From: Flavobacteriaceae bacterium
Lineage (GTDB): Bacteria > Bacteroidota > Bacteroidia > Flavobacteriales > Flavobacteriaceae
Assembly (NCBI GenBank): GCA_016780245.1
Contig: JADHME010000009.1
Coordinates: 1 to 34,094 of the forward strand
Length of the DNA stretch: 34,094 nt
Direction of reading: 5' to 3'
The notes under the pieces are model-generated. The model worked only from the letters and a program-made list of their open reading frames with translations, ran no database searches and was not told the origin of the DNA. Positions 2,358-3,194 of the stretch are shown here, one piece after another. The position numbers and the translations under genes are program-made. The first letter of the stretch is position 1, and each line of letters opens with the position of its first letter.

Positions 2358-3194
2358 TTGTTCCACGTGAAACAGATCTTTAAAAAAGACCATAAACTGT
2401 TTAAAGTAAAAGACTATATAAAGTCAGGTGATCTTTTTCAACTATATAAAGACAATAATTCTGGAATAGCTTGGACCTTTTTAGATAAGAATCATAACCA
2501 TGAGTATTATTACTTGTCCGAAAAATATATTCCGCATAAAGAAAAAAAAGGTTTTTTTGGCTTTTTATATTTATTTGTTCAAAAGATCATGTTTAGATAC
2601 AAATTAAAGAATCTAAAAAATCACATTAACAAAAACAAGACAGTTTTAGATTATGGTTCAGGAGATGGGAGGTTTGCCGAATATTTAAACCAACTACACA
2701 TTAAAACAATGACCTACGATCCTCTTGTAAACAAATTAGATGAATCAGAGCCTTATAGTCATCAAACATCTGAAAATCAAGTAGATACACTAATGATGTG
2801 GCACGTACTTGAGCATATACCAGATTTAGATTCATCGATTAAAGCAATATATAATTCTATTAAAAACAAAGGATCTTTAGTAATTGCTGTACCAAACATC
2901 GATAGCTTTGACTCAAAGCACTACAAAGAGTGTTGGGCAGGCTTCGATGTCCCACGTCATCTCTATCATTTTAATCATGAAAGTTTAATTAACTTTATAG
3001 AAAAGCAAGGTTTTATTTATAATTATAGAAAACCATTAATTTTTGATTCTTTTTATGTTTCTATTTTATCAGAGAAAAACAGGAATAATCCATTTGGTAT
3101 ATTGATTGGATTGACTATAGGGTTATTATCAAACTTTTTCGCACTTTTTTCTACTAACTATTCCTCATCCTTCTACGTTTTTACTAAAGACTAA
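2358..3194 (+). CDS. Class I SAM-dependent methyltransferase
   Basis: Motif I VLDYGSGDGRFAEYL, then MMWHVLEHIPDL; follows mnmG. TTG start inferred from the ORF track; initiation site uncertain. Confidence 0.85.
   Translation: MFHVKQIFKKDHKLFKVKDYIKSGDLFQLYKDNNSGIAWTFLDKNHNHEYYYLSEKYIPHKEKKGFFGFLYLFVQKIMFRYKLKNLKNHINKNKTVLDYGSGDGRFAEYLNQLHIKTMTYDPLVNKLDESEPYSHQTSENQVDTLMMWHVLEHIPDLDSSIKAIYNSIKNKGSLVIAVPNIDSFDSKHYKECWAGFDVPRHLYHFNHESLINFIEKQGFIYNYRKPLIFDSFYVSILSEKNRNNPFGILIGLTIGLLSNFFALFSTNYSSSFYVFTKD
2359..2374. promoter_or_regulatory. parS ParB binding site (TGTTCCACGTGAAACA)
   Basis: Exact 16-bp match to the canonical chromosomal parS consensus; overlaps the putative TTG start of the following methyltransferase ORF. 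Confidence 0.88.

Follow-up and report, generated by a model that had tools for sequence, protein, structure and literature searches.

Introduction

The best comparison for the locus described here is the chromosomal parS of the ParABS systems of Bacillus subtilis and Caulobacter crescentus, a 16-bp palindrome present in few copies at one locus. In Caulobacter, parS sites lie inside essential or costly genes (PMC5815017), and intragenic parS sites also exist in Pseudomonas aeruginosa (PMC4368675). Residues 173 and 201 set the preference for parS or NBS. The parS-type combination is R173/G201, and that of Noc is Q173/R201 (PMC7383237). For the Flavobacteriaceae, no description of ParB–parS was found in the literature searched, the scope of which did not extend to the Livny 2007 parS survey.

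The window analyzed here is a stretch of 34,094 nucleotides from a fragmented Flavobacteriaceae MAG (1,065,178 bases, 74.5% completeness). A sequence-only reading of this DNA had claimed a parS site at the start of a methyltransferase gene. We compared the site with the rest of the MAG, with 25 genomes of the same genus and with other members of the family.

Results

A pattern search of the 34-kb window located TGTTCCACGTGAAACA at 2359–2374. It is identical to the parS consensus TGTTNCACGTGNAACA, as the sequence-only reading had stated. The search also located a partner that this reading had not reported, CGTTTCACGTGAAACA at 464–479 on the ybeY/mnmG junction, with a single mismatch at an outer base. 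The pair flanks mnmG. Neither site was assigned a strand. The hexamer CACGTG occurs twice in the window, once in each site. In the whole 1.07-Mb MAG, a core-intact palindrome with both arms was present only at 464–479 and 2359–2374, and the remaining matches at ≤2 mismatches were degenerate in the core or in an arm. Core-intact, two-armed sites are likewise few and confined to one locus across the genus. The reversed control pattern gave no match at ≤1 mismatch in the MAG or in any of the 25 genus genomes. The genome-wide search suggested earlier was thus performed, and scattered copies of the 16-mer were absent.

Three genes on the plus strand surround the sites. ybeY, encoding an rRNA maturation RNase (60–482; Pfam YbeY 2.4e-22; TIGR00043 above cut-off), ends with GTT TCA CGT GAA ACA TAA. 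Site 1 lies over this end, encodes the last residues, VSRET, and stops 4 bp before mnmG. mnmG/gidA (483–2357; TIGR00136, E 1e-250) is bracketed by both sites. The third gene encodes a class I SAM methyltransferase (2358–3194; Pfam Methyltransf_23 3.1e-19, residues 78–219). Site 2 spans the mnmG/methyltransferase junction: it leaves one base free behind the mnmG stop codon (2355–2357) and lies inside the open frame 2358–3194, which from TTG 2358–2360 translates initially as LFHVKQ. Around 2355–2360, mnmG and the methyltransferase gene share a frame with one stop codon between them, as they do in 19 of 19 congeners read. Readthrough of this stop into the methyltransferase was judged unlikely because TAA, TAG and TGA are all found there among congeners. 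A phage origin of the methyltransferase was rejected, as no match was found in the phage sequence collection. An RNA hairpin or terminator was also rejected, the predicted fold being no better than those of shuffled sequences (z 0.83).

mnmG was detected in 19 of the 25 genus genomes. In each of these 19, both sites are present and their offsets are constant, site 2 from the second base past the mnmG stop and site 1 about 1,893 bases ahead of that stop. Among the six congeners lacking a detected mnmG, G063 alone has one core-intact, two-armed site (≤1 mismatch). Columns 2–15 of site 1 are identical in 19/19 congeners. The same columns of site 2 vary only at two degenerate Y/R positions, in one of the 19. 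Columns 1 and 16 are variable, and the mean identity of neighbouring columns is 0.80–0.82.

The sequence-only reading had proposed conservation beyond codon constraint as a check, and the column profile and codon usage of the 19 congeners bore this out. Site 1 keeps the codons GTT TCA CGT GAA in 19/19; at site 2, CAC GTG is kept in 19/19 and TTC in 18/19. Both CGT and GTG are kept at the sites although they are rare, CGT accounting for 4% of the codons for Arg and GTG for 7% of those for Val. In mnmG, amino acid-invariant columns with a single codon across the 19 genomes numbered 0 of 16 for V, 0 of 27 for S, 0 of 21 for R, 0 of 26 for E and 0 of 4 for H; 4 of 18 F columns were codon-invariant, all TTT. 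Codon constraint is therefore insufficient to explain the sites, since comparable V, S, R, E and H columns are never codon-invariant. The two sites are translated in different frames (VSRET at site 1, FHVKQ at site 2), and the same DNA is kept in both, indicating that the shared constraint acts on DNA.

The putative start of the methyltransferase had been given as TTG 2358–2360, with a protein that would begin (M)FHVKQ. The overlap with parS and the frame LFHVKQ were confirmed; the TTG became uncertain. Directly past the mnmG stop, the window and six congeners have TTG as the first codon; four congeners have ATG at this place and eight have AAG. The eight AAG genomes form a single clade (support 100/99 in the tree), and AAG at this codon in a sister clade is what makes TTG 2358 uncertain as a start. 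An alternative is GTG 2367–2369 (plus strand), which lies in the parS core CACGTG and is present in 19/19 congeners. With AAG as the presumed first codon, this GTG, codon 4, is the first in-frame ATG, GTG or TTG in the eight-genome clade, and thus its first usable start. In four of the clade's genomes (L138, L139, L140 and L143), the next candidate start after the core GTG is at codon 67 or 78; in the window protein, the methyltransferase domain starts at about residue 78. In 7 of the 8 AAG genomes, the frame runs uninterrupted to 273 codons; in the eighth (L141), the frame read covers only 120. Differences in this frame are enriched at third codon positions. Homologues starting just past parS (e.g. 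L083, MNFSKDKFIFKVKDH) align well with the GTG-started product MKQIFKKDHKLFKVKDY.

F. johnsoniae starts favour A at −3 (PMC6847099), and A at −3 is absent from both window candidates, codon 1 and the core GTG. We consider TTG 2358 and GTG 2367 about equally likely as the start in the window. Whichever is used, the methyltransferase start overlaps parS. We lean towards the parS-core GTG being the real initiation codon in the AAG clade, and the same GTG may serve the window genome. Its position as first usable start in that clade seems to be a new refinement.

A parS site at ≤1 mismatch was found in 59 of 61 Flavobacteriaceae genomes, and among the matches listed the sites were mostly paired, about 1.9 kb apart. 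In nearly all of 80 relatives identified through MnmG, parS flanks mnmG, either on one side or on both. Of the upstream sites, 39 overlap ybeY and 57 are intergenic. The 63 downstream sites comprise 9 that overlap a candidate methyltransferase start, 13 in an open frame before the start and 41 intergenic ones. The downstream site shifts relative to the next gene; therefore, the anchor is mnmG and not the start codon. The double use of parS as a gene start, described earlier as unusual, is accordingly not a conserved device, the start being overlapped at 9/63 downstream sites in the family.

Some loci depart from the simple pair. In Flavobacterium sp. MC2016-06 (L072, 2812–3938), the ybeY–mnmG gap is enlarged to about 1.2 kb and contains ten parS-like sites (≤1 mismatch), four of which (TGTTCCACATGGAACA) lie in tandem units of about 117 bp. 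Sites with a CACATG core are found around mnmG in Tenacibaculum, Kordia and others, and sites with a CTCGTG core in Polaribacter and one relative (variant-core loci L080, L090, L111, L064 and L091), in each case beside canonical-core sites. A change in ParB specificity behind these variants in Tenacibaculum, Kordia and Polaribacter was rejected, as residues 173 and 201 are unchanged and canonical-core sites coexist.

In one relative (G024), the pair is at 3.388–3.390 Mb of a 3.411-Mb contig, 21–23 kb before the contig end. In 20 sampled stretches, GC skew was mostly negative before the contig end and positive after the contig start. The distance from the pair to the coordinate origin, at which the skew flips sign, is about 23 kb. 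A congener (G061, 1.11-Mb contig) has a noisy cumulative-skew minimum, and the pair lies 148 kb (13%) away from it.

ParB (TIGR00180) was detected in 20 of the 25 congeners, including both of those with completeness ≥90%. At the three loci read, parB adjoins parA, and after parB come a DUF5683-like gene and lepB. ParA and ParB were identified with Pfam, and the DUF5683 and LepB names are ones we presume from reading the sequences. parB and mnmG are about 436 kb apart in G061. None of parA, parB, the DUF5683 gene and lepB was found in the window's own 74%-complete MAG. The sequence-only reading had named the absence of parA and parB from the genome as refuting the claim: the genus has both proteins, and the window's MAG has neither. 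The missing block is probably an assembly gap. A gap is the simpler reading because the linked parA, DUF5683 gene and lepB are absent too and the MAG is 74% complete. Signal peptidase I is normally essential, so the absence of lepB also points to a gap. Loss of ParABS from the organism is less likely, given that the whole parA–parB–DUF5683–lepB block is missing.

Among the 25 ParBs read, which came from congeners and relatives and did not include that of the window genome, R173 is present in 25 and G201 in 24. Genus ParBs retain R173, and all but one retain G201. Q162 of Caulobacter ParB is a parS-contacting residue. Its equivalent is I, V or A in 7 of 8 genus ParBs (L120–L126) and Q in 17/17 ParBs from outside the genus. 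This alteration in the genus proteins would count against the parS reading.

Discussion

Consensus match, low copy number and the ParA and ParB of the genus strongly support the claimed parS identity; the start-codon overlap is not a conserved dual-use device. The 16-mer appears very probably to be a genuine parS doing the ordinary job of a centromere. Considering the sites, their conservation and restriction to mnmG, the genus ParA and ParB and the origin proximity in a relative, all of which the sequences document, we hold with high confidence that 2359–2374 is the downstream member of a chromosomal ParABS parS pair that brackets mnmG, with ParB loading and origin segregation as its presumed role.

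We infer the following events at the pair. ParB, produced from a separate parA–parB–DUF5683–lepB operon, would load on both parS sites as a CTP clamp and then spread across mnmG and its neighbours, and ParA would separate the origin regions of the two sister chromosomes. In the reduced genomes of this genus, the spacers that divide ybeY, mnmG and the methyltransferase gene have shrunk almost to zero, and, probably as a result, the centromere DNA now also encodes the YbeY C-terminus and would supply the methyltransferase start, either as an NTG at its 5′ edge or as the core GTG. The start-codon overlap is real and lineage-specific, and is probably a product of compaction.

The genus data alone might suggest that the 16-mer is mere coding sequence, with FHVKQ and VSRET as conserved peptides and an incidental parS match, since both sites lie in open frames there and the peptides are conserved. 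This coincidence was rejected and we give it almost no credence. One DNA sequence is maintained although the two sites are read in different frames, rare codons persist in 18–19 of 19 genomes where no comparable mnmG V, S, R, E or H column is codon-invariant, and in other genera the 16-mer is often intergenic. A different palindrome-binding protein is no more credible, whether Noc at an NBS or a CACGTG-binding transcription factor. One genus ParB does score higher with nucleoid_noc than with parB_part (208 vs 159 bits, NCBIfam), but 208 is under the Noc cut-off of 315. The site sequence is of parS type (TGTTTCACGTGAAACA) as opposed to a Noc site, and the genus protein has R173/G201 and not the Q173/R201 of Noc (PMC7383237); neither an NBS-type sequence nor a Noc with Q173/R201 was encountered. 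Unlike the sites of a regulon, these are few and all at one locus.

An element of dual function, at which parS-bound ParB regulates the methyltransferase gene, at the transcriptional or translational level, and ties it to segregation, deserves slightly more consideration, and we regard it as improbable. Site 2 overlaps the candidate start codons, and in P. aeruginosa ParB represses genes beside the intergenic sites parS3 and parS4 (PMC5521831). However, the genes beside the intragenic sites parS1 and parS2 of that species were not upregulated without ParB (PMC5521831). The position of site relative to start is not conserved in the family (overlap at 9 of 63 downstream sites), and the RNA fold is unremarkable (z 0.83). 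A direct effect on the mRNA would be unexpected because ParB is a DNA-binding protein. An ordinary centromere pair around mnmG remains our preferred reading.

These results locate the probable chromosome centromere of a large family as a pair around mnmG, away from parAB. The locus would also be a clear natural case in which a single stretch of DNA acts as a centromere and, in addition, encodes a protein C-terminus and a translation start. On both strands, parS contains NTG and GTG start codons in frame, and neighbouring gene starts can therefore fall within it. For annotation, this is a warning that an FHVKQ or VSRET protein end may be a translated centromere.

Like the chromosomal parS of the B. 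subtilis and C. crescentus ParABS systems, the sites described here are 16-bp palindromes in few copies at one locus, origin-proximal in one relative and accompanied, within the genus, by ParA and ParB of canonical type. Unlike that type, the pair brackets mnmG, parAB is distant (about 436 kb in G061) and both sites are within or bordering coding frames. The embedding of centromere sites in genes is shared with the intragenic parS of Caulobacter and Pseudomonas (PMC5815017, PMC4368675). Unlike in those bacteria, the site here overlaps a translation start, and in one clade the core GTG is the first start available.
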